From Miscanthus floridulus (Eukaryota; Streptophyta; Magnoliopsida; Poales; Poaceae), in the NCBI RefSeq assembly GCF_019320115.1, contig NC_089584.1, forward strand, positions 54,619,633 through 54,683,632: a stretch of DNA of 64,000 nt, given 5' to 3'. The position numbers and the translations under genes are program-made. Positions 11,801-33,917 of the stretch are shown here, one piece after another. Each line of letters starts with the position of its first letter. Within the stretch, counting starts at the first letter, position 1. The notes under the pieces were generated by a model. The model worked only from the letters and a program-made list of their open reading frames with translations. It was not told where the DNA came from and searched no databases.

Positions 11801-12545
11801 GGAGATATGCACCTACTCAGTAAAAGAAAGTTAATCTTGTTATCACCCTAATGCCTTGCTATTAAAGACATTTATGATTATGCTTTGCATCATATCATAT
11901 CATCCATGTCATTACCTATGCATCCATGATATCTTATTTCATACTCATGCATATAGGATCGTCTGAAGAAATCACCCTCTTGGAGTTCGAGGCCGAAGAG
12001 GAGGAGAATCAGGAGGCACCTCAGTCGGCAAATCCCAAAGGTGAGGAGCAGGCCCTAGAAGAATTATTGGAGTGCCTAGAGCATAGGCCTACCTCTATTC
12101 TGAAAGGCAAGCCCTAGAGCATTCTAAGCCTCCTATGTTTTTATAAATATCACTTGAGTCATTTTATGTTTGGAGCATTCTGAAACACTTGATGCATGGA
12201 ACTACCTTGTCCAAAAACATACCTTGAACCCTATGTAGGTCTAGGATCGAATAACTACTTAACCATGCTTAGCTCGGTAGAAGTCAGGTGATTCCCTATC
12301 ACCTGTGAGAGATAGGTAGACACTGAACCATGGTTGGCTATATTTGCTATCATGTAAAAGAATCATGGGATGTTGTAATTCAAGGCTAGACGGAGTCTAT
12401 GTTGTTGGTTGACTCATGTGATTCCATCTACGCCGATTAAGGACCACATCGATGTTGGTCCTCGGTCATTTTGAACGCATGCCTCTCACTTAGCTGGTCG
12501 GATAACTCATTCCAACCCCGAAGCTGAGTAGCTCAACTTAGGCTA
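8809..12545 (+). mobile_element. Tekay-type LTR 'A', left part
   Basis: It begins TGTAACACCCTAGTGC at 8809, the start used by Tekay-type LTRs here, and runs colinear with the solo LTR at 58840-62946. Both carry the block ATGCATATAGGATCG and then GAGTTCGAGG before a short Glu-rich open stretch (about 11950-12115 and 61295-61420). It is interrupted at 12545 by the full-length Tekay element and resumes at 25307. The GC-rich part at about 9480-10560 yields open frames, but they match no gene I recognise and have counterparts in the other LTR; I treat them as LTR sequence. Confidence 0.8.
12541..12545 (+). repeat. Target site duplication, left copy (GGCTA)
   Basis: It flanks the 5' LTR of the full-length Tekay element. 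The right copy at 25307-25311 reads GGCTG. The uninterrupted homologue near 61914 also reads GGCTG, so the left copy has probably acquired a G-to-A change. Confidence 0.7.
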
Positions 12546-13345
12546 TGTAACACCTCTGGTGTTTTGACCTAGCACTAAAAATTGACATGTCATAATGTGC
12601 ATTGCAAAGCATTCATATACTATAAAGTTTTGAATGCATTCACTAAATAAGGTTTATTTCATAATGTTGTTATTTCATGTGATGTGTTTCAAAAACCCTA
12701 AATAAAGATCATGACCACAAGGGTCAAATTTCATGTGATCATGTGAGGCCATGTGTCATTTGACTCAAATAACCCTAATGGGCCATGTTACTGGTCAAAA
12801 ATCAAAATTTAAGTAAAAGGAAGACAAATCAAAATTTAATTCAAATTCAAATTATAAAAGTCCTTTTTGCCCCTTTTGACTAATTCAAAATCCATATGGA
12901 ATTTGGGGTTGAGTCAAAAAGCAAAGTTGGGGGTTATTTTATGTGGATCAACTTTGGTATTCAAAGTTTTTCAAGTTTACATATAAAATTTGGAGTAATT
13001 TTGAAATGATTCAAATGCTCAAATGCACCCCAAATTCAAATTTCAAAATGGAGGCAGAATTTGAAAATATTTCTAGAAGCAAAGTTCTAGAGTTTGAAAA
13101 ATTGAACAACTTTCATTTTTGGAGATTTTCAACTTCTTTAGAAAATTTGGGAGTAATTTGAAAAATAGACGCAGTGGCAGTTCTGTAATTATTTCAAAAA
13201 TCAACCTCCACCTCTCTGCTTGCCGCCGGCGCCATGCGGAGGTCACCGCCGATCGGATTTTGCCGCTTCTTCACATGTTGACATGCAGCCAGTGCCGTGG
13301 CGAGCGCGGGCATGCGCTGTCGACGCTGGGCAACACCTTCCCGGC

Positions 13346-13353
13346 TATAAATA
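13346..13353 (+). promoter_or_regulatory. TATA box, Tekay 5' LTR
   Basis: TATAAATA sits in GGCTATAAATAGCAGC about 800 bp into the LTR, just before a C-rich stretch. The same box is at 22603-22610 in the 3' LTR. A start about 30 bp downstream would give a leader of roughly 3 kb before the first ORF. Confidence 0.75.
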
Positions 13354-14665
13354 GCAGCCGCGCCGTCGTCATTCCCGTTTTCCCCTTCTGCTCTGCTCCG
13401 CCACTAGCTTGCTCCGCCTCTCGCCGTAGCCTCCGTCGAGCAGCGTCCATCGTGCCTAGCTACGCCTACGTGATCGCCTTGGCCTTGCGCCTCTCTACGG
13501 CTTGTCTACGCCACTTGGGTTGGCCAGAGTCGCCTGGCGCAACTGCTTCTTCCCCGAGCCTGGCCGGAGCTTCGCCAGCATCGTCTCGACGTGGCTAGGC
13601 CATTCTAGACCATCTCCGCCTTCACCAAGCCCACCGACGTGACCATGGTGAGCCACTGAATGTGAAGTTCACTTCGCTTTAGACTCTACCGCAGTCTTGC
13701 TGGGGTTACACCGTGAGCCGACGTGCTCGTGCCGCCATGGCCGGCGTGGGGTCTTCTCCGGTGTACCTTCTGCCATTCCAAGGACAGGGATGGGTTCGTA
13801 GTAGGGTGTAGATCATTTTGGTGAGGTCAGCTTCGCCGGAGCATCACCGTCGGCACATTTTGCGGCCGGTCAGTGAGGGCAGCGCCGTCGTGACATGTTT
13901 GAGTCACTAACGGGTGGGGTCAGCCTATCAGTGTGAGTGAGGAAGAAGAACAGTGAAGATTTTTATTTTCTAAATTTGTGAATAGTGCTGAAACTTTGGG
14001 AATTTGTAGGAAATTCATGATAGCTCCAAAAATTCTGAAATTTTGTGTGTAGCTTCTATACATGTTCTAGTATGATTTAAACATTTGAAACTTGAAATTT
14101 GAATAAATTTTTAATGTTCAAATATTCAGTCCATTAATTGAAAAATGCAATTTCCATGATTTTTGTAGGTCACTGTATAATTCTAAAAATTATGAAATTT
14201 GTTTTGGTACACTAATTTGTCATGAGGAATCTTACATAAAATTTTCAGGTCATTTGGAACAAGTTCATTTTTGGGCTTAATTCCAAATTAATTCAAACAT
14301 AGATAAAGACAAACCCTAAGTGTTTGAATAGTGTTGGATCTTGTTTTGGTCATGTTTTGTGACTAGTAGGGTTTCAAGATCCACTTGGTCAAGTCACATG
14401 TGTGGTTCTTGATGGTAGGATTGCAAGTTGGTTTTGTTGGCTTGCAACTGTACCGTAAAATAAAATCCTTTGCGGGGTGTTTTTACATTTCATGTACCGT
14501 GAAAGCATCATGTTTACATTATCATCATGTCAAAGCATATGTTATCATTTCATGTAGAACCCGAGAACGAAACGATTCTAGTTGAGCAAGTTCTGGAAGA
14601 ATCCCTGGTTGTCATGGGATTCGATAATTGTGGTACTGATCCGGAACCTGAAATCGTCAACGAAG

Positions 14666-15621
14666 GTAAGCCCCAGTTTATGCATTAAACCCTTACCTTG
14701 TTTACTTTGAAAAGTTTATCACCTATGTTACTTATTGCATTAAGTTGATTAAGTTCGAATGTTACCTACTTGATGCATTGCCTACCTTGTTAATTGTTTA
14801 CTATCCTTGAAGATTTTTTTTAAAAAGGCGTAGATTGCTTGGTATGCTTTACGGTAGGTTTTCAAAGTAAAAGTTTCGATACAATCAAAGATGGCATACT
14901 GGCCAAAGAAAGAAAGAAGGTAGAATGAACTAGAGACTAATCGGGTGACTTATCTTGAATGTTGGGTAATGTTGCCGACTATGTTGCTTAAAGGCCACTC
15001 ATTGTGGATCTTTTGAACGAGACACTTTGTAGTACTGGTCACATACTCTGGTAAGCCTACTTCGGCTAATCCGATACTAAGACGAATGCCCACACACTAG
15101 GAGTGGAGAGATGGCGGGAGTAGCGTGTACCCTCATGGCTAGAATGTGGCCGGATTTGAGGTGTGCTGTGCTCTCGGGTGGTGTGGAGATGGCTTAGTAT
15201 AGGAGGATCTAGTAGCGAGGTTGATATATGCAAGATTGAGTTCTACATATGTCATGTGATAAGGAATCCCTAGCTAGGACTTGAATCAATTCGAATTGCC
15301 GGTGCTCCGCGGATATGGAGACTCGATTCATTACAGAAGCAATGCAGGACTGGTGAATTACTAAAATATGAGAAAAGAATGGAATGAGAAGGATTGGAAT
15401 ATGGAAAATGTACATTTAGTTGAGGTAATGAACTAAAGGAACTTAAGGGTAAAACTTGAAAATAGAATGGAGAATAGTAAGCTTTTGGCAAAGAACTTTT
15501 GAATCTTGCTACATCCTTACCTTGCCCCAAACCCCTGCATCTCTAAAGTCTTACATCCCGTTATGTCGGGTTAGTCTTGTTGAGTACCTTTGTACTCAGG
15601 GTTTGTTAACCCTTGTTGCAG
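14666..15621 (+). other. Possible leader intron within the Tekay 5' LTR
   Basis: A donor GAAG|GTAAGC begins at 14666. A strong acceptor (GTTAACCCTTGTTGCAG) ends at 15621, with a TTAAC branch-like site and pyrimidines before the AG. Removing this 956-nt stretch would shorten the leader. In the 3' LTR the donor reads GC instead of GT. This is a prediction from sequence only. Confidence 0.35.
15582..15613 (+). repeat. Two adjacent perfect hairpins in the Tekay LTR
   Basis: GAGTAC-CTTT-GTACTC (15582-15597) is followed at once by AGGGTT-TGTT-AACCCT (15598-15613). The first hairpin and the following CAGGGTTT recur in other LTR contexts: 24833, 25877 (partial), 28257, 36134 and 62468 (partial). Confidence 0.75.
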
Positions 15622-16057
15622 GTGAGTCGCATGCGTAGGCTTGTTTTGGTCCCTGCTGCATGTCTGTGTTTGAAGTCAATGACGATGAGGAGTGATGAAT
15701 GGCCTTTGGACAAGGCACTAGTTTGTATGATAAATAAAGTTAATGTAATATTATCCCGCTACTATGGTTGTATGACACTTATGGTATTGTAAGTTTGAAA
15801 ACAACTGGTTTGTAACTATGTTATCTTAAGACTTCCGCTATCTTTTACTCTGGTATATATATTTGAATAAACTATTGTAATCTGCAATGTCTATGATTGG
15901 GATTCTATTTGAAAAGAGAATCATGGATGATTCGGGTTTTCCGAGGACACCCGACAGACCTATTGAGTTGTTGGGAACTCGTGTACGCTATCTAAGGTCT
16001 GTTAAAGACAACAATAGGTGCACGTGGGCCCGATTCCTTAGGAGGTTCTGCCACAGC

Positions 16058-16069
16058 TGGTATCAGAGT
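16058..16069 (+). other. Primer binding site, initiator tRNA-Met
   Basis: TGGTATCAGAGT lies two bases after the 5' LTR. It matches the 3' end complement of plant initiator tRNA-Met (TGGTATCAGAGC), the standard primer of this clade. Confidence 0.9.
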
Positions 16070-16360
16070 AGTTCCCATCTAAGATCATTGTAGGTTACTT
16101 TGGAAAACCTTCAAATTGATTTGGATCAAAGAAAGTAAACTTGATATTGTGAAAGTTCAATTTCTTTCTTCTTACCTTTGATCTAGACTCAATCTTGACT
16201 TATTTGAAAGTTTGTGGCAGATAATATGCTTAGGTTTGTCCTATGTATTAAAAAATCTAGTACTTATGATTATATAAATCTTTTGTACTTAGATTCGTAA
16301 GATCGATTCATGCATCATGCTTGAGCACATTGCATAATAATTCCCCTTAATAGTGGTTGG

Positions 16361-16438
16361 GTAAGTAATGTCAATCCCATTCTTGCTAACCTCCATTATC
16401 CTCAAGCTATTCTTATAGTCCTACCTTAAATCGTACAG
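16361..16438 (+). other. Candidate 78-nt intron before the leader ORF
   Basis: The donor GTAAGTAATG starts at 16361. A perfect plant-type branch site TTGCTAAC lies at 16383-16390, although it is far from the acceptor. The acceptor GTACAG ends at 16438, three bases before the leader ORF ATG. The same donor could instead join the acceptor at 17137, which would skip the leader ORF and start at gag. Confidence 0.4.
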
Positions 16439-16441
16439 GCT

Positions 16442-16978
16442 ATGGCAAAGACCAAGAAAACCGCACGCAAGTCCACCGGACCTCATGGAGTCCCTCATCA
16501 CCAATTGGCACCAAGAAATCACGAGCTTGGTGAAGAAAATTCCAAGAACCTAGGAGAGGAAGGATCTTCAAGCAACCCCGCCAACGTTGAGAACCTTAAC
16601 AAGGTGCTCAACACTCTTTGTCGAGCTCATGCCAGAGATCAAGAAGAGCTAGCGGAAATGCAAAGGGTTATCACCATGACCATGGAGCTACGGAATGAAG
16701 CCTGGACACGAGAGGATGCGGCCAATGAACGCGTCCATGAGTTGGAGTTCTACGTAGAGGACCTAGAGATGGACAATGCTATTCTTCATGAGAATGTCCA
16801 CATGTTGTACGCTCAACTTCATCCACCTCATGGGGATGGTGAAGTTACCGATGAAGAAATGATTGTAGCTCCAGGAGAAGTCAAGAATGAAGAAGAGGAG
16901 GAGGATCCTGAGGAGTTGGTGTACTTCTTAGATGAAGATGAGGTTTTGTCCGATATGGGCACGGATGTTGAAGACTAA
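16442..16978 (+). CDS. Tekay leader ORF with histone H3-like N-terminus
   Basis: An intact 178-residue ORF lies between PBS and gag, in the same frame as gag-pol but closed by TAA. Residues 2-13 (AKTKKTARKSTG) match the histone H3 tail (ARTKQTARKSTG) at 10 of 12 positions, including K4, R8, K9 and S10. A few residues on, PHHQLA parallels PRKQLA of H3. Residues about 49-126 are predicted by eye to be a coiled coil (NLNKVLNTL to NVHMLYAQL). Residues 133-178 are very acidic (KNEEEEEDPEEL, DEDEVLSDMG). There is no signal peptide or membrane segment. The ATGGC start context is strong. I know no established function; a chromatin-directed role is inference. No stop or frameshift is seen, but for its size that is only weak evidence of selection. 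Confidence 0.75.
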   Translation: MAKTKKTARKSTGPHGVPHHQLAPRNHELGEENSKNLGEEGSSSNPANVENLNKVLNTLCRAHARDQEELAEMQRVITMTMELRNEAWTREDAANERVHELEFYVEDLEMDNAILHENVHMLYAQLHPPHGDGEVTDEEMIVAPGEVKNEEEEEDPEELVYFLDEDEVLSDMGTDVED

Positions 16979-17137
16979 GAGCTTGGAGTAGAAGTAGTTC
17001 CTTTACTACTTTCCTAGAAAACCAGGGCTGTCTTGTGGGATACAAGACATGTATTATAAATAAGGACCCTTTGTAGCATGAAACCTTTTAAATGTTTTCA
17101 ATAAAGAATAATGTAAGTAAATGTGTTTCTCTAACAG
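16979..17137 (+). promoter_or_regulatory. Leader ORF to gag spacer with processing signals
   Basis: This 159-bp spacer holds TATAAATAAGG (about 17055), an AATAAAG (about 17100), a donor-like GTAAGTAA at 17113-17120, and a strong acceptor GTGTTTCTCTAACAG ending at 17137, exactly one base before the gag ATG. It looks arranged for RNA processing between the two ORFs. Which signals are used is unknown. Confidence 0.5.
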
Positions 17138-18286
17138 ATGCCTCGTCCTATCACCCGAACTGGTGCTAGTGGCTCGCATGACGATGATGAGTGCCCAAAT
17201 CCTCCACCAATGCCCTCGACTATGGCAGATGCCATAGCCGCACTCGTCAACGCAACGGCAGAGAATGCTAGGCTGTTAAGGGAGTTGGCACAGAACCAGC
17301 AGGCACCATACCCTAATCGTGGCCGTCGTAATAATGGAAACGATGAGTCAACCTATGTGGATTTTACTGACACACATCCACCGGTGTTCTCTAAGGTAGA
17401 AGAACCTTTAGAAGCAGACGATTGGCTTAGGACAATAGAGCAAAAGTTTGAGCTGATTCACTGTACCGAGGTTCAGAAACCTAGGTTTGCGGCACAGCAA
17501 CTCTGAGGAGCTGCTAGTGCCTGGTGAGTAAATTTGGTAGCAGTACAGCCCACTGGTCACCAAATCAACTAGAGGGAATTCAAGGATGCCTTTACGGCAC
17601 ACTATATTCCAGACAGTGTGATAACTATGAAGTTAGAAGAGTTCTTGGCTCTTAAGCAAGGGGAGCACCCAGTGATGCATTATGTTGGGCGTTTTAACCA
17701 CCTGTCGCAGTATGCTATTAAGTATGTGAATACTGATAGGAAGAAAAAGAATCATTTTCTTAGAGGCCTGAACACTAAACTTCAGACCATGATGGCAACT
17801 TGTGGTAACGCAACTTACCATGAGACAATCAACATTGCTATCGCTTCAGAGGAGAATTACCGCCGACACAAGGAGGCGAAGAAGAAGAAAATATTTGCTT
17901 CTGGATCGTCGAGTGGAAAGCGTCAGAAGATCGTATACCATCCTCAGAATCATGGCCGTGCACCATTCCGCCCACAACATGGCCAAAGCAGGCAATAGAT
18001 TTTCATTCGCCCTGCAACTAATACGCCTTATACTCATCAAGCACCACAGCAGCAGAACAATACAAATAATGCAAACCACAATGCTACTCCCTAGAATCAC
18101 AATTTTCCATGCTATAATTGTGGTAAACCCAGACATTTTTCCCGAGAATGTCCCTATCCTAGGAAGAACAATCCTAATGCATCCAAAGCTCCTGTTAATC
18201 AAGCTCAGAATTAGTACAAGGGCAATGCTCAGAACAATCAGAAGGGTCAGGCTAAGAAGAAAACTGGAAGGGTCTTCTATACTCAA
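17138..18286 (+). pseudogene. gag: gag of the Tekay element
   Basis: This is the particle structural protein. It starts MPRPITRTGASGS at 17138. The gag core runs DDWLRTIEQKFELI, then YFxx-type residues after the stop at 17570, then MKLEEFLALKQGEHPVMHYVGRF and IAIASEENYRRH. A CCHC zinc knuckle (CYNCGKPRHFSREC) is intact at 18110-18151. In-frame stops are at 17504, 17525, 17570, 17996, 18092 and 18212. Each is one transition from CGA, TGG or CAG. It is in frame with pol throughout, as usual for chromoviruses that encode one polyprotein. Confidence 0.9.
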
Positions 18287-18607
18287 GTGGAATCTATTCC
18301 TGAAGGAGAACCAGTTATGATGGGTATGTTTCCCATTGCTAAGCATCCTGCAATTACCTTATTTGATTCTGGTGCATCCCATACATTCATCAATCGTACA
18401 TTTGTTGTGAAGCATGGGATAGCTATTGGGGAAACAAAAGAACCCTATCATATACAGTCGCCCAGGGGACGAATCTATACAAGGGAGGTAGTTCAGCATG
18501 TACCTATTGATTTGGGAGGATATGAGTTCCCTACCAATATGCTGATATTAAAGGATCAAGATATAGATGTGATCCTTGGTATGAACTAGTTAACTCAACA
18601 CGGGGCT
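18287..18607 (+). pseudogene. PR: aspartic protease of the Tekay element
   Basis: The motif LFDSGASHTFINRTF (active site DSG at about 18365) is intact and the domain ends with ILKDQDIDVILGMN. A TAG stop at 18587 replaces the Trp normally present in the GMxWL motif. The domain would cleave the gag-pol polyprotein. Apart from that stop it looks whole and is in frame with gag and RT. Confidence 0.9.
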
Positions 18608-19700
18608 ATGATAGATGTCCTGTGTAGAACCATAAGGGTAAATGTACCCGACAGCAAAACCCAACTTCTCATCCAACTTCCTTTTCCTAAGAGTATAGTG
18701 GAAACAGTCTGTGCAACTAGTGTTGAAGGAGTCGAGAAAATTTCACTGGTATGTGAGTTTACGGATGTCTTTCCCGAGGATCTGCCTGGTCTGCCACCAG
18801 ACCGAGACGTAGAGTTCAGAATTGATCTAAAAATAGGGACAGCACTAGTGTCCAGAAGAGCATATAGGATGCCACCGAAAGAACTAGCAGAATTAAAAAT
18901 GCAACTGCAAGAGTTGTTAGACAAGGGTTTCATTCAACCCAGTTCATCACCTTGGGGATGCCCTGCAATCTTCGTGAAGAAGAAGGACCAAACCTTAAGG
19001 TTATGTGTTGACTATCGGCCATTAAATGAAGTCACCATCAAGAACAAATACCCCTTACCCTGAATTGATTTGCTTTTTGATCAACTTGCGGGAGCTAAGG
19101 TATTTTTGAAGATAGACCTAAGATCAGGCTACCACCAGATTAAGATCAGACGTGAAGATGTGCCAAAGATAGCGTTTACTACCTGATATGGACTATATGA
19201 GTATTTAGTCATGTCTTTTGGGCTGACCAATGCCTCGGCTCACTTCATGTACCTAATGAACTCAGTTTTCATGCCTGAGTTAGATAAGTTTGTTGTGGTG
19301 TTCATAGACAACATTCTTATCTATTCTAAGAGCAAAGAGGAACATGCGGAACATCTCCGTATTGTTCTACAAAGGTCAAGAGACCACCAACTATATGCCA
19401 AATTCAGCAAATGTGCATTTTGGTTAGAGGAAGTACAATTTCTGGGTCATGTGCTATCTGCTGAAGGTATAGCTGTTGATCCGAGCAAGGTAGAAGTCCT
19501 TAATTGGAAAGAACCTACCACCATTCATCAAGTTCGTAGTTTCCTAGGGTTGGCAGGGTATTACTGTCGGTTTATCCCTAACTTCTCTAGAATTCCGAAG
19601 CCAATTACTGGACTGTTGAAAAATCAAACTAAGTTTGTATGGTCAACAGAATGTGAAGAGGCCTTTCAGACATTGAAGAAGTTGCTGACAACTGCACCAA
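18608..19700 (+). pseudogene. RT: reverse transcriptase of the Tekay element
   Basis: Blocks seen in order: [20 protein letters not shown], then [17 protein letters not shown], then [48 protein letters not shown] and [11 protein letters not shown]. Stops at 19061 and 19183 are both CGA to TGA. The catalytic box reads FIDN at 19301-19312 instead of F/YxDD; the second Asp is Asn through GAC to AAC. So even without the stops this polymerase should be inactive. Domain order and spacing are those of a normal chromovirus. Confidence 0.92.
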
Positions 19701-20119
19701 TATTAGCACAACCGGATATCAAGAGGCCGTTTGATATCTATTGTGATGCATCTGGAATTGGTATTGGCTGTGTTCTTATGCAAGAAGGCAGAGTCATAGC
19801 ATACGCTTCCAGACAACTCAAGAAGCTTGAGGAACATTATCCCACCCATGATCTTGAATTAGCTGCTGTTGTCCATTCACTCAAGATTTGGTGACATTAT
19901 TTATTGGGCAATATCTATCATATCTATACGGATCACAAAAGTTTGAAATACATCTTCACTCAGTCAGAGTTGAATATGAGGCAAAGAATATGGTTAGAAC
20001 TTATCAAAGATTATGATTTAGAAGTGCATTATCATCCGGGCAAGGCTAATGTGGTTGCCGATGCCCTGAGTCGCAAGAGTCATTGTCATTGCCTAATTGT
20101 AGAACCTATGTAGCGAACA
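19701..20119 (+). pseudogene. RNH: RNase H of the Tekay element
   Basis: RNase H degrades the RNA strand during reverse transcription. Seen are [18 protein letters not shown], the [20 protein letters not shown] block, then [12 protein letters not shown] and [13 protein letters not shown]. The acidic residues (CDAS, E of DLEL, YTDH, VVAD) are all present. Stops are TGA at 19892 (from CGA) and TAG at 20111. Only one RNase H is present, in contrast to the Tat elements in this window. Confidence 0.9.
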
Positions 20120-21440
20120 TTGTGTCAAGAGATGGAGCATCTGGATTTACAAATCATGGAACAAGGTTCCTTGTCCAATATTGTAGTTGAGTCCACTATC
20201 AAAGATCAGATCATTGCTACTCAACAGAAAAGTAAGGGCATAGCCCATATTAAGGATAAAGTCAGATCTGGAAAACCAACATGTTTTAAGATTGATGAAT
20301 CAGATGTTGTATGGTTCAAGGATAGATTGGTAGTACCCAAAAATCCGGAGCTACGAAAGCAGATTCTTGATGAAGCTCGTTCTACAAGATACTCCATTCA
20401 TCCGGGAAGCAACAAAATATATCATGATCTGAGAAAGAGATATTGGTGGACCAAAATGAAAATAGAAATCGCTCAATATGTGGCCAAGTGTGATGTTTGT
20501 TAGAGAGTCAAAGTGGTTCATATGAAGACTGTAGGTCCATTACATTCATTGCTAGTTCCATCTTGGAAGTGGGAAGATATTTATATGGACTTCATCGTGG
20601 GATTGCCCAGGACATCTGCAGGCTACAATTCCGTATGGGTTATTGTTGATCTCCTAACCAAGATAGCTCACTTCCTACCAGTCATAGATAAATATCGAGC
20701 GGAGCAGTATGCAAAGCTTTATCTTGATAAAATCTTCAGTCTGCATGGGGCACCCAAGACCATTGTCTCTGACAGAGGGTCATTGTTTATATCTAAGTTT
20801 TGGAAAAGTCTACATGAGTCTTTAGGAACTAAACTTATCCGTAGTTCTGCTTATCATCCACAAACAGATGGATAGACTGAAAGGGTAAATCAAATTCTTG
20901 AAGATATGTTAAGAGCATGTGTTCTTTCTTTTGGTGCTAAAGGGGATGAATGCCTTCCCTTAGTTGAATTCTCGTATAACAATAGCCATCAAGATAGCAT
21001 TAAAATGGCACCATTCGAGGCACTATATGGCCGTAGGTGCCAAACACCTTTAAATTGGTCAGAAACTGGAGAACGTTGGTTCTTTGGACCGGATGTGGTC
21101 AAGGAAGCTGAAGAGAAAGTTAAACTCATACAAGCCAATATGAAGGTAGCTCAATCCTGACAGAAAAGCTATGCTGATAAGAGGAGACGACCGCTAGAAT
21201 TCAAAGTGGGAGATTATGTCTACCTCAAGGTATCACCAATGAAAGGAGTTCATCGTTTTGGGATTCAGGGAAAGTTGGTGCCCTGTTATGTCGGTCCTTT
21301 TTAGATCCAACAATAATGTGGACCAGTCGCCTATCGCGTCAAGCTACCAGATCACATGTCAGTAGTGCATGATATCTTCCATGTATCTCAGTTAAAGAAG
21401 TGCCTTCAAGTACCTGACCAAGAGATCGACTTTGGTGATG
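20120..21440 (+). pseudogene. INT: integrase of the Tekay element
   Basis: The zinc-binding HHCC domain is present (HPGSNKIYHDLRKRYWW ... VAKCDVC). The catalytic core has the first Asp in YMDFIVGLPRTSAG, the second in IVSDRGSLF, and the Glu in TERVNQ. All three catalytic residues survive. The GPF/GPVAYRVKLP module follows, leading to the chromodomain. Stops are at 20501, 20873, 21158, 21302 and 21314. The product would insert the DNA copy into the genome. It is in frame with RT and the chromodomain. Confidence 0.9.
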
Positions 21441-21631
21441 TAGAACTGGAACCTAATTTGACTTATGCCGCGTACCCCATTAGAGTCTTAGATCAGAAAG
21501 ATCGAGTCACTCGGAGATGTACGATCAAGTTCTACAAAGTACAATGGAATCAACACACTGAAGATGAAGCTACTTGGGAGTCCGAGGATTACTTAGAAGA
21601 GAATTTTCCTGACTTCTTCGCTTCTATCTAG
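21441..21631 (+). pseudogene. CHD: C-terminal chromodomain of the Tekay integrase
   Basis: The chromodomain-like end reads YPIRVLDQKDR, then IKFYKVQWNQHTEDEATWES, then EDYLEENFPDFF, and the polyprotein stops at 21629-21631. Chromodomains of chromoviruses are known to steer integration to marked chromatin; those of this clade usually lack part of the aromatic cage, and here too the first aromatic is uncertain. The segment itself has no stop. It is noteworthy beside the H3-like leader ORF of the same element. Confidence 0.88.
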
Positions 21632-21802: not shown

Positions 21803-24800
21803 TGTAACACCTCTGGTGTTTTGACCTAGCACTAAAAATTGACATGTCATAATGTGCATTGCAAAGCATTCATATAGTATAAAGTTTTGAATGCATTCAC
21901 TAAATAAGGTTTATTTCATAATGTTGTTATTTCATGTGATGTGTTTCAAAAACCCTAAATAAAGATCATGACCACAAGGGTCAAATTTTATGTGATCATG
22001 TGAGGCCATGTGTCATTTGACTCAAATAACCCTAATGGGCCATGTTACTGGTCAAAAATCAAAATTTAAGTAAAAGGAAGACAAATAAAAATTTAATTCA
22101 AATTCAAATTATAAAAGTCCTTTTTGCCCCTTTTGACTAATTCAAAATCCATATGGAATTTGGGGTTGAGGAAAAAAGCAAAGTTGGGGGTTATTTTATG
22201 TGGATCAACTTTGGTATTCAAAGTTTTTCAAGTTTACATATAAAATTTGGAGTAATTTTGAAATGATTCAAATGCTCAAATGCACCCCAAATTCAAATTT
22301 CAAAATGGAGGCAGAATTTGAAAATATTTCTAGAAGCAAAGTTGTAGAGTTTGAAAAATTGAATAACTTTCATTTTTGGAGATTTTCAACTTCTTTAGAA
22401 AATTTGGGAGTAATTTGAAAAATAGACACAGTGGTAGTTTTGTAATTATTTCAAAAATCAACCTCCACCTCTCTGCTTGCCGCCGGCGCCACGCAGAGGT
22501 CACCGCCGATCGGATTTTGCCGCTTCTTCGCATGTTGACATGCAGCCGGTGCCGTGGCGAGCGCGGGCGTGCGCTGTCGATGCTGGGCAACACCTTCCCG
22601 GCTATAAATAGCAGCCACCGCCGTCGTCATTCCCGTTTTCCCCTTCTGCTCTGCTCCGCCACCAGCTTGCTCCGCCACTCGCCGTAGCCTCCATCGCGCA
22701 GCATTCGTCGTGCCCAGCTACGCCTACATGATCGCCTCGGCCTTGCGCCTCTCTACGGTTTGTCTACGCCACTTGGGTTGGCCGAAGTCGCCCGGCGCAA
22801 CTGCTTCTTCCCCGAGCCTGGCCGAAGCTCCGCCAACATTGTCTCGACGTGGCTAGGCCATTCCAGACCATCTCCACCTTCACCAAGCCCACCGACGTGA
22901 CCGTGGTGAGCCACTGAACGTGAAGTTCACTTTGCTTTTGACTCTACCGCAGTCTTGCCAGGGTTACGCCGTGAGCCGACGTGCTCGTGCCGCCATGGCC
23001 GGCGTGGGGTCTTCTCCGGTGTACCTTCTGCCATTCCAAGGACGGGATGGGTTCATAGTAGGGTGTAGATCATTTTGGTGAGGTCAGCTTCGCCGGAGCA
23101 TCACCGTCGGCGCATTTTATGGCCGGTCAGTGAGGGCAGCGCTGTCGTGACATGTTTGAGTCACTGACGGGTGGGGTCAGCCTGTCAGTGCGAGTGAGGA
23201 AGAAGAACAGTGAAGATTTTTATTTTCTGAATTTGTGAATAGTGCTGAAACTTTGGGAATTTGTAGGAAATTCATGATAGCTCCAAAAATTCTAAAATTT
23301 TGTGTGTAGCTTCTGTACATGTTCTAGTATGATTTAAAAATTTGAAACTTGAATAAATTTTTAATGTTCAAATATTCAGTCCATTAATTGAAAAATGCAA
23401 TTTCCATGATTTTTGTAGGTCACTGTATAATTCCAAAAATTATGAAATTTGTTTTGGTACACTAATTTGTCATGAGGAATCTTACATAAAATTTTTAGGT
23501 CATTTGGAACAAGTTCATGTTTGGGCTTAATTCCAAATTAATTCAAACATAGATAAAGACAAACCCTAAGTGTTTGAATAGTGTTTGATCTTGTTTTGGT
23601 CATGTTTTGTGACTAGTAGGGTTTCAAGATCCACTTGGTCAAGTCACATGTGTGGTTCTTGATGGTAGGATTGCAAGTTGGTTTTGTTGGCATGCAACTG
23701 TACCATGAAATAAAATCCTTTGCGGGGTGTTTTTACATTTCATGTACCGTGAAAGCATCATGTTTACATTATCATCATGTTAAAGCATATGTTATCATTC
23801 ATGTAGAACCCGAGAACAAAACGATTCTAGTTGAGCAAGTTCTGGAAGAATCCCCGATTGTCACGGGATTCGATAATTGTGGTACTGTCCGGAACCTAAA
23901 ATCGTCAACGAAGGCAAGCCCCGGTTTATGCATTAAACCCTTACCTTGTTTACTTTGAAAAGTTTATCACCTATGTTACTTATTGCATTAAGTTGATTAA
24001 GTTTGAATGTTACCTACTTGATGCATTGCCTACCTTGTTAATTGTTTACTATCCTTGAAGATGTTTTCTTTTAAAAAGGCGTAGATTGCTTAGTATGCTT
24101 TATGGTAGGTTTTCAAAGTAAAAGTTTCGATACAATCAAAGATGGCATACTAGCCAAAGAAAGAAAAAAGGTAGAATGAACTAGAGACTAGTTGGGTGAC
24201 TTATCTTGAATGTTGGGTAATGTTGCCGACTATGTCGCTTAAAGGCCACTCATTGTGGATCTTCTGAACGAGACACTTTGTAGTACTGGTCACATACTCC
24301 AGTAAGCCTACTTCAGCTAATCCGATACTAAGATGAATGCCCACGCACTGGGAGTGGAGAGATGGCGGGAGTAGCGTGTACCCTCATGGCTAGAATGTGG
24401 CCGGATTTGAGGTGTGCTGTGCTCTCGGGTGGCGTGGAGATGGCTTAGTATAGGAGGATCCAGTAGCGAGGTTGATATATGCAAGATTGAGTTCTACATA
24501 TGTTGTGTGATAAGGAATCCCTAGCTGGGACTTGAATCAATTTGAATTGCCGGTGCTCCGCAGATATGGAGACTCGATTCATTACAGAAGCAATGCAGGA
24601 CTGGTGAATTACTAAAATATGAGAAAAGAATGGAATGACAAGGATTGGAATATGGAAAATGTACATTTAGTTGAGGTAATGAACTAAAGGAACTTAAGGG
24701 TAAAACTTGAAAATAGAATGGAGAATAGTAAGCTTTTGGCAAAGAACTTTTGAATCTTGCTACATCCTTACCTTGCCCCAAACCCCTGCATCTCTAAAGT

Positions 24801-25306
24801 CTTACATCCCGTTATGTCGGGTTAGTCTTGTTGAGTACCTTTGTACTCAGGGTTTGTTAACCCTTGTTGCAGGTGAGTCGCATGCGCAGGCTTGTTTTGG
24901 TCCCTGCTGCATGTCTGTGTTTGAAGTCAATGACGATGAGGAGTGATGAATGGCCTTTGGACAAGGCACTAGTTTGTATGATAAATAAAGTTAATGTAAT
25001 ATTATCCCTCTACTATGGTTGTATGACACTTATGGTATTGTAAGTTTGAAAACAACTGGTTTGTAACTATGTTATCTTAAGACTTCCGCTATCTTTTACT
25101 CTGGTATATATATTTGAATAAACTATTCTAATCTGCAATGTCTATGATTGGGATTCTATTTGAAAAGAGAATCATGGATGATTCAGGTTTCCCGAGGACA
25201 CCCGACAGACCTGTTGAGTTGTTGGGAACTCGTGTACGCTATCCGAGGTCTGTTAAAGACAATGATAGGTGCACGTGGGCCCGATTCCTTAGGAGGTTCT
25301 GCCATA
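21803..25306 (+). repeat. 3' LTR of the Tekay element
   Basis: It starts TGTAACACCTCTGGTG and ends GAGGTTCTGCCATA, 3504 bp. The terminal CA of the 5' LTR reads TA here, one C-to-T change. TATA box at 22603-22610; hairpin motif at 24833-24864. It is colinear with the 5' LTR with scattered transitions and small indels. Confidence 0.93.
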
Positions 25307-25311
25307 GGCTG
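25307..25311 (+). repeat. Target site duplication, right copy (GGCTG)
   Basis: It pairs with GGCTA at 12541-12545 across the Tekay element. Sequence after it continues LTR 'A' (compare 61915 onwards). Confidence 0.7.
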
Positions 25312-26022
25312 GGCCTCAATCTATTAGAGTGCACACACTGGAGGTAGTAAGGATGTGCGGGGAGCTAGACGTGAGCCCAAGGGTAGGGTAGTCTTGATCA
25401 TCCTGGCAACCGGTAGAGTCCCTAATTGTGTGGCGCTGATCAAACCCATGAAATGTGTACCTAAGTTGTACCAAAGGTTACCTAAAGCTACCATGGCTGG
25501 TAGACCTAGGTTTGTGTTAGGAATACTACCTAGCTGGTTGCAATCGATTCGAATCGCCGTCTCTCCTAGATAGTGAGAAACTTGACTGAGCTTCCTTCTA
25601 TCATAGTGTGAATGGCAAGTGGAATGGTTCTGAGGATGATATAATAAATGGCTATGGTTACTATTGTTATGCTACCTAATCATATACCACATGTTTGGCA
25701 CAGGTTAGTTGCTAATCTAGAGATAAATAGCTACAATTAACCTAGTGACCAGATTATAAATGTATAGTTCAACTAGTGCTTTTTTATGCAAATGCTGTCA
25801 AGCTAGCTCCACTGATAAAGCCTTGCATGATCCTTGGAGTCACTTTAATTTTGGTTTATGATGGGTAAGTCTAGCTAAGTACCTTCTTGTACTCAGGGTT
25901 TATTTCCCACTTGTTGCAGATAACACAGTCTATCAAGGATACTGCAAGAACTGCTTCTCTCCCACCGTGGATGAGGAGTAGGCCATGGGCAAGGTGCTTC
26001 TATATATCTAATCTATGATGCT
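25307..26022 (+). mobile_element. Tekay-type LTR 'A', right part
   Basis: It resumes LTR 'A' (GGGCCTCAATCTATTAGAG, then CACACACTGGAGGTAGTAAG), colinear with 61915-62611 of the solo LTR. It includes the TTGTACTCAGGGTTTATTT motif. It stops at 26022 where a SIRE-type LTR begins. Compared with the solo LTR about 335 bp of its 3' end, including the GGTTCTGCCACA terminus, is missing and was not found elsewhere in the window. Confidence 0.8.
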
Positions 26023-27825
26023 TGAAAGCATCTAGGCCCCTAGTTGGGTTTCGGTAATTAATGACAATACATAATTACTATGACTAACGTGTGTTTTACA
26101 GAGGCAATTAAGTTAGGTCATGGTAATGGAGATTGATTGGGCAATCATGGTTGTCATGCCCCTACGATGGAAATCATTTCGGTTTTTAAAGGATGGACGA
26201 CAGGGTTAAGGATGGACTAGTTCTAAGTGTCGTTTGGAGTTGAAGAGACACTTAGAGTAGTTTAGGACTTTGTTTTTCCTTTGGCCATACTATTAAGGGG
26301 GGTATGGATGGGTAGCTTGACCTAGGTGAGTCTAGTGGGTTAGGTGTGGTGCACACTTGTCAAATCTAGCACTAGGTAGCTCCTAAATAGCCCTTAGATC
26401 AATTGGAGCAAACTTCATTCACATATGATTGCGAGATAGAAGTGAATGGAGGGTCAAATCATGCTCTTTCATCTCCATTTGAGTAAATCTCTATAATGCT
26501 TTCATGCTATGTTAGTTTGCTATAGTATGCGTAATGTTTGATGTATGTTCATACATCTTTTAAATTAAGCATGGAGCTTAGTTTAGGGGTGCTAATCATA
26601 CTTCCAAAGGCTTTTAAATTAAGCTTGGTGCTTAGGTTAAAATGCCTTCCTAAATCAAAGTAGACATGGTGTCTAGGCTAATTTTTTAGCCAATGGTATA
26701 CTTTAGTAGACCCTAGATATTTTGTTGGACTAATCCCTGCATGAAACTCTCAATTCAATTTGGGTAAGTCACAAGATGAATTCAAATCAGAGATGAAGCA
26801 AGGCACATGATGAACTCCAATAACTTTGCACAAAGAAGGCAGATGAAAGCACTACATGAACAATGAGTGAAGTGGAAGATCGAACAAAGTGTCAAAGATC
26901 AAAGAGTAGAAAGATGGCATGACAAAAGGATGTGAAAGGAAGGGTGCAATCTAGGCAACAAGAAGTCATAACTATGAGGCTAGCCAAACAAGGAAAACTT
27001 CAAGCAAAAAGGGAAGGACCATCACAAGTCATCTACCACTCGTCATGTGGTGTCATCATGCTTCAATGATGAAGGTAACATCGTAAGGTGAATGGTTATT
27101 ATTTAAATAGTTTTCCTTGATTCGGGTAGACACATAAATAAGAAAAAAACATATTTGAGTTACAACTTGCTTGATCTAATCTAATTAACTCAACATGTTT
27201 AGTTCTTTAAGCTTGTTACTAGCACCATTTTCTTGATCTTACAGCCTTAACCAAATAAGCTAGAAAGTTGCATACCTTATCTCTGAAAGATGATAGTCAT
27301 AATCATAATACCTTATGGACAATCCTTCCATAGGTTAAGAAACTCAACCCTTTTGGCCAAATATACTTAAATATTCATACTCAATCTTCTGGTCCTATCA
27401 TCCATGTTATAATTGAACAAAGCACATGACATCAACTTCATCTTGTTCAATGTGCCTAAGGATAGAGAGGAATAAGTAAAGTTTTGGTTTTGTTGGTGTT
27501 TTCCCACCAATAGAGCCCATGCACTTGATCTCTGCCTTGTCTTTATGTGCAGGGCACACTTCAAGCAAAGTGTGGGGAAAGTTAGTCGATCCCCCAATTT
27601 CTACAAGTGTTCTAAACCCGTCAAACCAAAATCCAAACTCAAAACCAAGATATGTTTGGCGGAAGAAGGTGACATCACCATTAGAGGTGTCATCACAAGA
27701 ATCCATGTCTTAAAAGTAAACCAAGATACTTGATCAATGAACTTCACAAGGAGAAGTCTGGTTCAAAGGACTTACAACACTGAACCCTCACTAATAGAGC
27801 TAGCTTGGGGGAGCAGCACTCCCAT

Positions 27826-27961
27826 GTATCTAGGTAAGTATTCTTTCCCCTTTGTATTAGTTTTAGTTTCTTTTAATTATTAAAAAATGATGAATGAAAA
27901 AAAATTATCTTTGCATTTATAGTAATAATGTGTGATCTAGTAAAATTGAAAACAAATTTCA
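27826..27961 (+). repeat. Athila-like 3' UTR block, copy 1 of 3
   Basis: The block AGGTAAGTATTCTTTCCCC, then TTTAATTATTAAAAAATG and GTGTGATCTAGTAAAATTG occurs here, at 31354-31485 and at 35705-35838. In this copy and the third it is preceded by GGGGGAGCAGCACTCCC. What follows differs: here and at 35838 comes a filler segment, at 31485 a longer A/T-rich UTR. Confidence 0.8.
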
Positions 27962-28256
27962 GAAGGCAGAGATTTATACACTTTGCGTTCAGAAGCTGTG
28001 ATTACATAGATTTTGCGTTCAGCACTCCCTGACCATGAAGCTCATCAGCCTATAATTTTGATTGCTTACCACCTTCTTGAAAGTAGAACAGGTGCTCACA
28101 TAGAATGGATAGTTAATGAACTAATGCCGACTGCTAATAAAAGTGAATATAAGGACGCACACTTAGTAATGCTTCCTACATATGCAATAAACACATAAGC
28201 CCGATAGCCTTGCATATCCTTAGAGTCTTTTTTCCTCCTGTCGGGCAAGTCTTACT

Positions 28257-28295
28257 GAGTACAATTGAGTACTCAGGGTTTTATTTCCCCCTATT
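28257..28295 (+). repeat. GTACTCAGGGTTT hairpin/acceptor motif
   Basis: GAGTAC-AATTGA-GTACTC is followed by AGGGTTTTATTTCCCCC and an ATTGTAGGTGAC end. It resembles the Tekay LTR motif at 15582-15621 although the surrounding sequence is otherwise unlike it. The second copy is at 36134-36177, where the AG reads GCAGGTGA. Confidence 0.65.
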
Positions 28296-29487
28296 GTAGG
28301 TGACAGGTGGATGCTAGAGCTAACCTTTGTGTGTGGATTCCTCCTGGTGGGCTCAGAGGGGATTTTCTTTACGCTTGAAATCCCACCAGAGCCATGCATG
28401 TTATTTAGACTAGAAAAATTTCCACATATATGCTACTTGCTTTTGCATTGAATTTTGTCAAGCTTTGTGACCCTTATGAGAGGGTTGTCATGATATTAAA
28501 ATCAATATCATGTACAAACCATCCAAATATGCACTACTCCTACACTAAAGGTAGGCGCATAAACATGCCTTCCATCTAGATCCACCCAAAAATATTTTAC
28601 TCCTACACTAGGAGTGAACACAAAAATATGCTTAATAGGTTTTCCATCCACCAAATAAATGCTCCAAGTTATTATTGCTACCTCTCAAAGTTTTGTTGTA
28701 GAAAAGAGGCATGGGCTATGCAAAAGTTATTCATAAAAATGAGAAGAAAAAATGATGAGAAAAAATGATGAGAAAAAATGGACACAAAAGTGTCTGAGAT
28801 ATTTAAAACAATCGGTACTTAGATGCCCGCTTGAAAAAAAGAGAAAAAGAGATGAATAAGATAGCCCATGTTCTCTAGCAAATGTTTCCAAGTTTCAAAA
28901 GAGAGATAAGTTTTCAAGGAGCAAAGTAGAATTAGGTTAGCCACTATATATATCCCCCATATATCTACACACATGCACATCTTGATTTGATTGTATGACT
29001 CAACTCTCTTTGGATCCATTGTTTGACTTTACAATATATGCATTGCAAGTATGCTCTAGCTTTCTTCCTACCTATGAACTCCACATAAGCTTTAGTTATA
29101 GGAAGAGAAAAAGGCATAACATCAGTATTGCCTTGGTGAGGATCCACAAATACCACATATATTGAGAGACTTGAGAGTGTCATATAATGGAATCTCTGAG
29201 TTTTATTTTGAAAACCTATAAAAATTTGAGAACAATGGTGGAACAAAGAACTTGAGACATAGCACTTAACTTGATCATTCTATCTTTCAATTGCTCAAGA
29301 CCCAAGTGACGGCTAAGAAGTCCCATAGTTGAAGGTAATATGGATGAGTTTGAAAGTCAGATCAGCTTATTCTAATCCGGAGGAGAACTCTTGATTGAAC
29401 GTGTTTGTACTTTTGAGGTGTGAAAGCATAGTAGCAACTTCTAATTCGTTGCTGAGTTTAGCTTTGTTTAGGGAGTAGCAAAGGTTA

Positions 29488-29501
29488 AGCTTGGGGGAGC
29501 T
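29488..29501 (+). other. Polypurine tract before Athila-like LTR, copy 1
   Basis: AGCTTGGGGGAGCT stands directly before TGTTGACGG. The same tract is at 37351-37364. Confidence 0.75.
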
Positions 29502-30690
29502 TGTTGACGGTCATTAATGTCAATTATAAACCATCAACATAACTTGCATATATACCTAATTCCATCACCAAACTTAGGTCTAGGGGTTTAAACTGACAAA
29601 TTCCATGAGTTTTAGTGAATCTATGTTTTTAGCAGGGTTTAATTAGAAAAACCATCAAGGTGGACCTATATGTCAGAATTAATTGCTCTTATCCATGGCA
29701 TAAACAACACTAGAAGGATCTAGAATACACTAGTAGACACCACACCACAACGGAGGGCGAGAGGCCACCAGGTGGGGCCGACCGGTGCCACCTGTAGGCT
29801 AGCCGGACTATGGGGTCCACAAGTCAGCTCTTCCTTGCTATGACGGTTCTCCACCACCTCCTAGATTGCATCTACGCTATCCTTTTGAGTTAGTTTGATC
29901 TGAGGGTTCAGAATTGACGCTACCCCCTATATATACAGCCATGTACTCCCTCTAGCGAAGCCATCCCTAAAACCCTAATTCATATCTTTAGGATCGAGCC
30001 AGCAATCAGGAGAAGATTAGTCCTCCATAGGATCTAGTCTTATAAATAATAGTGAGATGGAGTGTGCAGGAAGAGTTTGGCGGAAGTGTTGGCCTATCGG
30101 TGCTCTCTCTATGGCTTATACCTTGGTGGATCCAAGTTCTATTTGAGCTTGCTTCTAAGACTTTTCTAGCAATCAACTTCTGATTCAAGTAAGCATCTTA
30201 TTTATATTGTTCATCAGGGATCGTGACTCTTTTGAGTGCTTTATTCTCTTCCTAGAGGGAGTAAAGTATTAATCATAAGTGTAAGCATGGTGCTTAGACT
30301 TAGGTTAATCGTGGTTGCACCCTACATTCCGGATCGGTGGTAGCTCACGAGGGTGACTCTTATAGCCTTGTTGAATCCTTTGTAGTCCACCTTTCGTTTG
30401 TAGGCCAAGTAGGATCCGATTACTAAGGAAAGCATCCTCTGCTGGTGTCTTTCCCTTAGTAATGTCCCTAGTTGAATAGTAGAAGACATAGCTTACCGAA
30501 CTCAAAACTAGAGAACCTAAGTTATCGTCTCTACGCTCCTATTTATCCTAACCTTGTTGCTACCCTTAGTTAAGTTAGACCATTGTTAGTCTCACACAAT
30601 TCTCTGTGGATATGATACTTGGAATACTTTTAGGTAAAACCTATAGTGGTATCTGTGCGCTTGTGGATTTATCTATGTACATAAATAAAT
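29502..30690 (+). repeat. Athila-like LTR (TGTTGACGG family), copy 1
   Basis: It starts TGTTGACGGTCATTAATG after a PPT. A TATATATA box is at 29928-29935, followed by ACAGCC. It ends near a GTGCGCTTGTGGATTTATC segment; the exact 3' end is uncertain. It lies within the 5.3-kb repeat, so a twin is at 37365-~38545. The palindrome arms at 44191-46745 are diverged relatives. Confidence 0.75.
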
Positions 30691-31047
30691 ACCAATAGGG
30701 GTGATGTCGTCATGAAGGAATCATTGCACAATGCAAGACAAGTTTAAGCCCTGATGATAAGTGGGAGAGCGATCAGATTTAGAAGGCAAATGATTAACCA
30801 ATCTAACTGGCACTGCATGGCATGGAATCGCTGGTGTCTGCTCCCATCGGTGATCTAGCCCTAGTTTCTCACTAGTGCATGATGTTGGGCAATCTTCTTA
30901 TCGACGGCGTACGTCCCATGTGGGCGGTGGTTGGCCCAATTGAGGACATGCTCCCTGATGATGGACTATGTTCCAATGACGGGGCGCACTCTCTAGGCAA
31001 AGGGGGTAGACCAGCAAGCCATAGCGGCTAGCACGTATCATTAGCTT

Positions 31048-31356
31048 CTAGCTCTCGGGGATAGGAGTTGCAAACCCATGTCGATGATCATCTTCTAAGT
31101 CCGTCGTAATGTAGCCTAGAGAGTGCTTGGACATATCCTCGGTGGATGGCGAGTGGGAGCACGAGGATACATGAGACTCGCTTGTGACATGGGCTAGCAA
31201 GAATAGAGGAGGCCATGTAGCATGTGATGATCGCAAAGTGGAGCGCATCGGGAGTGGTGGTGGTGAGGGAACCACCGGTGCCGCTAGCGCCAGCGTCGTC
31301 ATCGAGGGCGACGGGGAGAGCAATGGCAGTCTAGGAGAAGGCGGGCGCGAACGCAT
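31048..31356 (-). CDS. Ser/Pro-rich ORF of unknown origin, copy 1
   Basis: A 102-residue minus-strand ORF: a Pro/Ser-rich first third (PRLPLLSPSPS, VVPSPPPLP), then FLLAHVTSESHVSSC, and the end HRHGFATPIPES. The N-terminus is cut at the repeat junction (31346), so the Met is accidental. The second copy at 38911-39501 has about 100 further N-terminal residues but an in-frame stop at 39091. I recognise no family. It could be a captured host or LINE-type fragment, or coding-like sequence of a retroelement. Confidence 0.35.
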   Translation of the reverse strand: MRSRPPSPRLPLLSPSPSMTTLALAAPVVPSPPPLPMRSTLRSSHATWPPLFLLAHVTSESHVSSCSHSPSTEDMSKHSLGYITTDLEDDHRHGFATPIPES

Positions 31357-33897: not shown

Positions 33898-33917
33898 ATC
33901 ACCAAAAAGGAGGAGAT
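33898..33917 (+). other. Polypurine tract of the SIRE-type element
   Basis: AAAAAGGAGGAGAT directly precedes TGAAAGCATC, preceded by GTCATCAATCACC. This is the standard 3' end of SIRE-like internal regions. Confidence 0.85.

Follow-up and report, generated by a model that had tools for sequence, protein, structure and literature searches.

What is a near-copy of the histone H3 tail doing at the start of a protein encoded by a plant retrotransposon? The reading frame that raises this question, here called ORF0, lies in the window, the whole 64,000-nt stretch of Miscanthus floridulus DNA that was analysed. An earlier note, made from the letters alone, had placed it at 16442-16978 on the forward strand with 178 aa, which was confirmed, and had described an H3-like N-terminus followed by a coiled coil and an acidic end. 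The answer reached here, to which an even chance can be given, is that ORF0, in a chromovirus resembling Retrosat2, presents an H3-tail mimic from a coiled-coil scaffold and so docks onto a host protein that binds H3 tails.

ORF0 is carried by an LTR retrotransposon of 12.8 kb that also encodes a chromodomain, and is placed between its primer-binding site and gag:

12546..16055, forward strand: 5′ LTR, beginning TGTAACACC and ending CCACA (ends set by eye after a blastn self-match)
16058..16068, forward strand: primer-binding site TGGTATCAGAG, read from the sequence just after the 5′ LTR and presumably of the tRNA-Met type
16442..16978, forward strand: ORF0, 178 aa, with no in-frame stops
17138..21631, forward strand: gag-pol frame (gag, protease, RT, RNase H, integrase, chromodomain), identified with Pfam
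21803..25306, forward strand: 3′ LTR (blastn self-match, ends set by eye)

Comparison of the window with itself by blastn gave direct repeats at 12546-16060 and 21803-25312 with 96.6% identity. Each LTR is about 3.5 kb long, above the 3 kb that marks elements of the Retrosat2/RIRE3/RIRE8 type; the 5′ LTR has the termini TG...CA and the 3′ LTR TG...TA, and the element is flanked by GGCTA and GGCTG, a target-site duplication agreeing at four of five positions. The K2P distance between the LTRs is 0.0314, which at a substitution rate of 1.3e-8 corresponds to about 1.2 million years. The sequences flanking the element also recur at 58840-62616, in a second copy of a repeat from which the element is absent. 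In that copy the left-flank match stops at 61900 and the right-flank match starts at 61896, an overlap of 5 nt, with the element edges at 12544-12546 and 25306; this empty site indicates that the element is nested inside another repeat. Elsewhere in the window, 5.3-kb direct repeats at 26022-31346 and 33917-39212 (95.3% identity) are probably a further LTR pair with unusually long LTRs, and a 2.5-kb stretch at 44190-46745 matches its own reverse complement at 89%, forming a long palindrome whose arms each measure about 1.27 kb.

When the gag-pol frame was compared with Pfam in ten pieces, seven of the ten were matched; the integrase core (rve) fell marginally below the Pfam cut-off, at 31.5 against 32.6 bits. 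The frame is interrupted by 16 premature in-frame stops, so that the window copy is dead for gag-pol. The layout is shared by other copies in the source genome: a gag ATG motif follows ORF0 on its 3′ side in 57 of 58 loci, as in the window, where ORF0 stands upstream of one gag-pol frame, and the window copy belongs to the 37 of 45 loci that have the primer-site motif 308-407 nt ahead of ORF0. The stop-free state of ORF0 was considered as evidence of constraint and discarded, since at the gag-pol stop rate 1.9 stops would be expected and none would be seen with a probability of 0.15. Six stops occur in the single antisense frame of ORF0 that was inspected.

The part of ORF0 that resembles H3 is short and lies at one end:

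16445..16516, forward strand: H3-tail-like box, ORF0 residues 2-25, aligned with H3 1-23 with one extra residue (PDB searches, shuffles and profiles)

The protein (P0001) begins MAKTKKTARKSTGPHGVPHHQLAPRN. As had been noticed, residues 2-13 are identical to H3 1-12 at 10 of 12 positions, and the likeness extends as far as H3 residue 23. It stands at the exact N-terminus of the protein, as the idea of a mimic with a free end supposes. The parallel drawn between PHHQLA and the PRKQLA of H3 grew closer in the relatives, which mostly have PRHQLA (R in 152 of 188, H in 28 of 188), and one relative, P0310, is identical to H3 1-12 at 11 of 12 positions. The local score of ORF0 against H3 1-23 was 57; the best of 20,000 same-residue shuffles scored 44. 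None of 20,000 shuffles reached the real score for six further ORF0 proteins from five groups either, with margins that were thin in group G4 (59 against 55 for P0263 and 54 against 53 for P0302). Searched alone against the PDB, P0001 gave 16 matches at E<=10, every one of them histone H3, with a best E of 0.35, which is suggestive and not significant by itself. P0310 alone gave 125 matches, the best among the 60 listed being a Cse4 construct at E 0.0062; since those listed mix PI3-kinase p85 coiled-coil chains (from E 0.01) with H3 (from E 0.014), the single-sequence evidence remains weak. A profile of 51 homologues reached a best E of 1.3e-5, and the 60 matches listed of 154 were all H3, CenH3 or H3 chimeras; a tail-only profile of 18 hand-picked variants reached 3.3e-7, with H3-type histones only among the 60 listed of 135. 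Chance likeness to H3 is excluded by the shuffles and the profile searches.

Capture of a whole histone was also considered and rejected. Three ORF0 proteins compared with Pfam had no histone match up to E 1, and gave matches below the curated cut-offs only; in place of a histone fold, a single long helix is predicted after the tail. A smaller capture, of the 5′ end of an H3 gene, or convergence, would leave the H3 likeness as a relic on a basic, disordered tail that serves to bind the RNA or DNA of the element, as a chaperone or in packaging. The first 25 residues of ORF0 are indeed basic and without D or E, the opposite end is acidic, the protein is an accessory one encoded in the leader beside gag, and the H3 match takes in the start codon, as capture would yield. 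Basic composition is insufficient, however, to produce the likeness, as the shuffles of all seven proteins indicate (the G4 margins being thin), and a relic would be expected to decay, a point on which the comparison of relatives bears.

Protein relatives were collected with P0001 (161 proteins, best 120 listed), with a 16-member profile (2228 proteins, best 120 listed, the scored set being the 7993 candidates with the most words in common with the query) and with P0074 (147 proteins at E<=0.01, best 120 listed). They were assigned by eye to groups G1 to G5, whose tails read AKTK[KI]TARKSTGPHGVPRHQLAPR in G1 (the window type), ARTKMTPRKSTGPKGVPRHQLAPR in G2, PPRTRKTARKSTGPIGVPRHQLAPR in G3, ARTKTTQRKATGPHGVPRHQLAPR in G3b, ARQKQTPRKRTGPKGVPRHQLAPR in G4 and ARTKQTARKMTGPKGVPRHQLAPR in G5 (P0310). 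Residues 27 to the end align by themselves in 15 of 15 pairs of six representatives (pairwise E 2.0e-3 to 3.0e-58), so that the homology of ORF0 is independent of the tail. In the alignment of 51 rows, G3b and G5 are represented by one protein each and G4 by three. The H3-like box was found by pattern in 188 of 312 proteins; the other 124 are, by eye, mostly gene calls begun at an internal Met, together with a few whose tail is beyond the reach of the pattern. Since the homologue searches use shared five-residue words, some of which lie in the tail, members with changed tails are under-sampled. Viral contigs and genome contigs were searched for further ORF0 relatives, and none was confirmed there.

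The 2.68-Gb source assembly gave 8530 first-look ORF0 candidates with P0001 and 9198 with P0071, overlapping figures that are not copy counts; the best 150 per query were scored, and 13 of the 150 for P0001 carry one in-frame stop. Both G1 and G2 are present in this genome. None of the 150 candidates scored for each query could be recognised as G3, G4 or G5; the top matches reached 39% for the G3 query, 44% for the G4 query and 61%, over residues 1-107 only, for the G5 query. Thirteen of 15 G3-query loci read as G2 and two fell outside the ORF pattern; matches to the G4 and G5 queries were classed as G2-like from length and identity only. Loci L001-L060, which include the window copy, provided the 58 with a readable ORF0 start (L052 and L054 were left out, and L061-L070 are outside the analysis), and these represent two families of related copies, not independent cases. 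A further sample was chosen by gag: 20 copies hand-picked from 150 gag matches, with their ORF0 outside the scored ORF0 matches and all of them close relatives of the window copy. All 20 show the ORF0 start region, and 16 read through 25 codons with K9 kept in 16 of 16; the other four comprise one with a stop, two with frame shifts inside the tail and one that is unreadable in register. One ORF0-like match (G000:C16:84615149-84615475) lies within a 728-codon open frame of the source genome and is perhaps an ORF0 joined to another frame.

Between groups, identity is 82-98% at residues 14-25 and 46-75% at residues 2-13; with G3/G3b set apart, it is 11-58% in the linker (26-48), 22-45% in the coil (49-128) and 6-34% in the acidic part. 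The sister pair G3/G3b shows 89%, 64% and 60% in these last three segments, and within G1 every segment is at 80-89%, as expected for recent copies. Site rates (JTT+G4) are slower at residues 2-25 than at 49-128 (Mann-Whitney P 0.0016), with means of 0.81 at 2-13, 0.62 at 14-25 and 0.98 in the coil, and 13 of the slowest 30 sites are within residues 1-25. Among the 188 box-bearing proteins, K9 is kept in 187, P18 (P0001 numbering) in 186, R8 in 168, S10 in 166 and K4 in 68, with R in 118. A7 is replaced by P in G2 and G4 and by Q in G3b, and S10 by R in G4, M in G5 and A in G3b. The prediction that K4, K9 and S10 would be conserved above the coiled coil thus holds for the tail between distant groups, but not for K4, nor fully for S10, and the three residues occur jointly in 53 of 188. 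Relatives without ARKS, named in the earlier note as counting against mimicry, do exist, the exact motif being present in 113 of 188, but the R8-K9 core is kept. The common core is R8-K9 plus GPxGVPRHQLAPR, which takes in residues 14-25, rather than K4 or ARKS as such, the second half of the tail being the best kept.

This pattern bears on a rival reading of the tail, as a nuclear import signal of the H3 type, by which ORF0 and its cargo would enter through H3 importins and leave chromatin modifiers unaffected. The H3 import signal resides in the H3 tail, and a likeness that covers the whole tail, PRxQLA included, and not the K9 region alone, fits a partner that holds the full tail; the first 25 residues, basic and without D or E, also suit an import signal. 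Import signals usually tolerate change, however, while K9 and P18 are near-invariant as single residues, and H3 K14 and K23, which are importin contacts, are variable or R in ORF0. Import is considered unlikely, though not strikingly so.

Selection was measured on 50 stop-free loci (28 G1 and 22 G2; 616 pairs, which are non-independent), 8 of the 58 having been removed for in-frame stops; L011, whose frame is longer, was counted in G1. Within groups, the dN/dS of the tail is below 1, the value that the earlier note had asked of recent copies (0.25 in G1 and 0.28 in G2), but the tail is not tighter than the coil (0.05 in G1 and 0.14 in G2). Little weight is given to these within-group values because the loci are best protein matches, a choice that strips non-synonymous changes. 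Between G1 and G2, tail residues 2-25 have a pS of 0.59, a pN of 0.18, a dS of about 1.2 and a dN/dS of 0.17 (codon bootstrap 0.04-0.45, 61 of 1000 undefined); the ratio is 0.20 for residues 2-13 (0.04-0.75, 225 undefined) and 0.14 for residues 14-25 (0.01-0.56, 91 undefined). Since the synonymous sites of the tail have diverged at this low ratio, the peptide has been kept, and the H3-like tail is under purifying selection between groups. The corresponding dN is 0.20 in the tail against 1.0 in the linker, 0.54 in the coil and 0.60 in the acidic part; synonymous sites are saturated in these three segments, and because of the saturation in the coil dN/dS cannot rank tail against coil. At the nucleotide level, blastn of the ORF0 of L003 (G1) against that of L031 (G2) aligned nucleotides 11-78 at E 6e-12 and otherwise gave short matches at E of at least 0.13. 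RNA-level constraint as the sole cause was rejected, since G1 and G2 tails differ at their synonymous positions. The tail pS is nonetheless below that of the coil (0.90, which is saturated and partly reflects poor alignment), so that some nucleotide constraint may act as well. A relic of captured H3 sequence should have decayed over this divergence, yet the tail has not, and the nucleic-acid-binding relic is judged distinctly unlikely.

The remainder of the protein was characterised by structure prediction:

16577..16819, forward strand: long helix, ORF0 residues 46-126 (AlphaFold2), with a best hydrophobic period of 3.50
16826..16975, forward strand: acidic C-terminal tail, residues 129-178, with 22 D/E and 1 K/R in the last 50 residues

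The AlphaFold2 model, built with 51 sequences, has a mean pLDDT of 72.9 and a pTM of 0.35; averaged over blocks of ten residues, confidence is 95-98 across residues 51-120 and under 70 on either side, through residue 50 and from residue 131 onward. The single predicted helix is close to the span of 49-126 for which a coiled coil had been claimed. Its hydrophobic period was matched by 16 of 500 shuffles with the 51 sequences and by 79 of 500 with G1 alone, which lends moderate support to a coiled coil. The acidic end that had been likened to histone-binding acidic tails is found in the G1, G2, G4 and G5 representatives (20-23 D/E in the last 50 residues), but is weak in G3 and G3b (11). The N-terminus is of low confidence in the model and probably disordered, which fits the exposed H3-like sequence that is expected of a histone mimic.

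The same element encodes a domain that, in other proteins, reads the H3 tail:

21488..21616, forward strand: chromodomain at the end of integrase (PF00385, E 3.3e-6; PDB alignment)

Its place at the integrase C-terminus is that of Tekay/Del elements, Tekay being the label given in the earlier note. Aligned with MPP8 (FYKVQWNQHTEDEATWESEDYLEE against LYKVRWKGYTSDDDTWEPEIHLED), it keeps the W and has H opposite the MPP8 Y at the third cage position, and a hand alignment places A at the first. By this alignment, one of the three cage aromatics of a type I methyl-H3K9 reader is present. With the other cage residues missing, the chromodomain is not predicted to be a methyl-H3 reader, so that the earlier note was right about the domain and its place but not about its reading of methylated H3. 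In its passages on chromodomains, a survey of plant elements describes those of seed-plant chromoviruses as being without the cage motif, and type II chromodomains as having no identified partner (Neumann et al. 2019, PMC6317226). That vacancy, and the encoding of tail and chromodomain by one element, would suit an arrangement in which the tail binds the chromodomain of the element's own integrase and ORF0 tethers or masks the enzyme. The cage, however, has kept its W alone, with H at the third position and A at the first, and ORF0-less related elements exist in dicots (PMC3485330), so that such a partner is not needed by all; tethering is regarded as very unlikely. On its sequence, the element would combine an H3-tail mimic with a chromodomain that is unlikely to read methylated H3.

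How ORF0 might be expressed ahead of gag was considered from its leader. ORF0 is the first ORF of at least 120 codons past the primer site, and since it precedes gag, gag must be reached beyond 178 ORF0 codons. Both start codons follow a candidate acceptor:

16436..16438, forward strand: CAG, splice-acceptor-like, 3 nt 5′ of the ORF0 ATG (rank 18 of 288, weak)
17135..17137, forward strand: CAG, splice-acceptor-like, abutting the gag ATG (rank 6 of 288)

YAG occurs in the 7 nt 5′ of the ORF0 ATG in 57 of 58 loci, including the window copy, and immediately 5′ of the gag ATG motif in 57 of 58. Scored with weight matrices, as the acceptors were, two donor-like sites of the LTR, at 14666 and 15622, rank first and second of 304 between the 5′ LTR and gag. 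The site at 15622 doubles as a good acceptor-like site (ttgttgcag/GTGAGT). In two groups each of the ATGs follows a YAG, and together with the strong donor-like sites this suggests that ORF0 and gag messages may be made by alternative splicing. Within the leader, a G1 and a G2 copy agree at 96% over a 26-nt stretch at 16294-16320, around GATTCATGCATCAT, that contains the palindrome ATGCAT; the rest of the leader gave only one more significant match between them, 48 nt at 77%. The 26-nt stretch may act in cis, for example in dimerisation or packaging.

In the preferred reading, that of a mimic docking onto an H3-tail-binding host protein, removal of the initiator Met would leave ORF0 beginning with Ala, like H3, and the first 23-25 residues, predicted to be disordered, would reproduce the tail of H3. 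A coiled coil formed by the long helix would show two or more such tails, while the acidic end may serve to hold basic partners. The docked protein would be one that recognises H3 around R8-K9 and P16-R17-x-Q19-L20-A21, and docking would most likely affect the silencing of the element or its access to chromatin, whether by recruiting or by competing. Of the modifiable residues of the tail, K9 is the constant one. Since K4, A7 and S10 vary across groups, none of the known readers that depend on all three fits; the HP1-type chromodomain needs H3 A7 and, with A7 and S10 variable, is not an obvious partner for all groups. Conservation of PRHQLA suggests that the partner also contacts H3 16-21. In the best-kept segment, 14-25 (PxGVPRHQLAPR), H replaces K18 of H3 and R replaces K23, departures that could point to a different function. 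A fuller scenario, tentative and falling somewhat short of an even chance, is that a lineage of plant LTR retrotransposons long ago gained an oligomeric, free version of the H3 tail, in which K9 was retained but K18 and K23 gave way to other residues, and has since engaged the H3K9 silencing machinery, or another protein that handles the H3 tail, with this version acting as decoy or adaptor. Silencing of plant retrotransposons proceeds largely via H3K9 methylation and linked DNA methylation. If the scenario is true, selection would have preserved a histone mimic of domain length in a transposon-encoded protein, and an H3-tail copy kept by a mobile element would point to a direct arms race at the H3 tail.

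An ORF0 upstream of gag-pol in elements with LTRs >3 kb has been described in rice Retrosat2, RIRE3, RIRE8 and FRetro3, with homologues in maize, sorghum and Brachypodium (Gao et al. 2012, PMC3485330). In the parts of that paper that deal with its distribution, ORF0 was not found outside grasses, related dicot elements lacked it, and BLAST with ORF0 in other species gave no significant matches (PMC3485330); ORF0 is therefore dispensable for some such elements. Identities between ORF0s there span 7.6-90.2%, with a mean Ka of 0.2574 and Ks of 1.6471 for four from Oryza (PMC3485330), and at the lower end some published ORF0s may lack the tail. The modelling passages proposed hydrolase, acyltransferase or transporter functions and left the function of ORF0 open (PMC3485330), and the terms 'histone', 'coiled' and 'mimic' are absent from the main text. 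Docking by an H3-like tail would give ORF0 a function, and the tail is a possible common landmark for ORF0s judged too divergent to compare. In the part of the plant-element survey that concerns extra ORFs, eORFs of at least 250 codons were counted (Neumann et al. 2019, PMC6317226), a threshold under which the 178-codon ORF0 falls. Viral histone mimics have been reviewed (PMC10208167), and mimicry through ARKS in SARS-CoV-2 ORF8 has been claimed and disputed (PMC10833455). Text searches of titles and abstract openings, outside subscription journals and bioRxiv, found no published account of H3-tail mimicry by ORF0 among the papers listed, and five peptide strings had no occurrence in the literature searched. 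ORF0 and viral histone mimicry are thus known already; an H3-tail copy of about 23 residues in a plant ORF0, kept across groups that have largely diverged elsewhere in the protein, was not found in these searches.

Set beside histone H3 itself, ORF0 shares residues 1-23, aligned with one insertion, the free N-terminal position and a near-invariant K9; it differs in having, in place of the histone fold, a long predicted helix that is followed in most groups by an acidic end, and in the changes G13 to P, K18 to H and K23 to R. K18 and K23 are acetylated in H3, so that two acetylatable lysines have been lost. The ORF0s of Retrosat2, RIRE3, RIRE8 and FRetro3 resemble the one described here in being an extra ORF 5′ of gag-pol in elements with LTRs >3 kb and one further gag-pol ORF, and in diverging strongly between elements; the two sets are likened by layout and not by ORF0 sequence, the published proteins being highly divergent whereas the homologues collected here have a near-constant H3-like N-terminus. 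The eORFs of plant LTR retrotransposons, as the survey outlines them, are likewise accessory ORFs within plant Ty3/gypsy elements (PMC6317226). In the viral histone mimics, too, a foreign protein shows a motif like the H3 tail. Influenza NS1 is one of them, and known examples match about four H3 residues, whereas the likeness in ORF0 covers about 23 positions, begins at the true N-terminus and belongs to a plant LTR retrotransposon.
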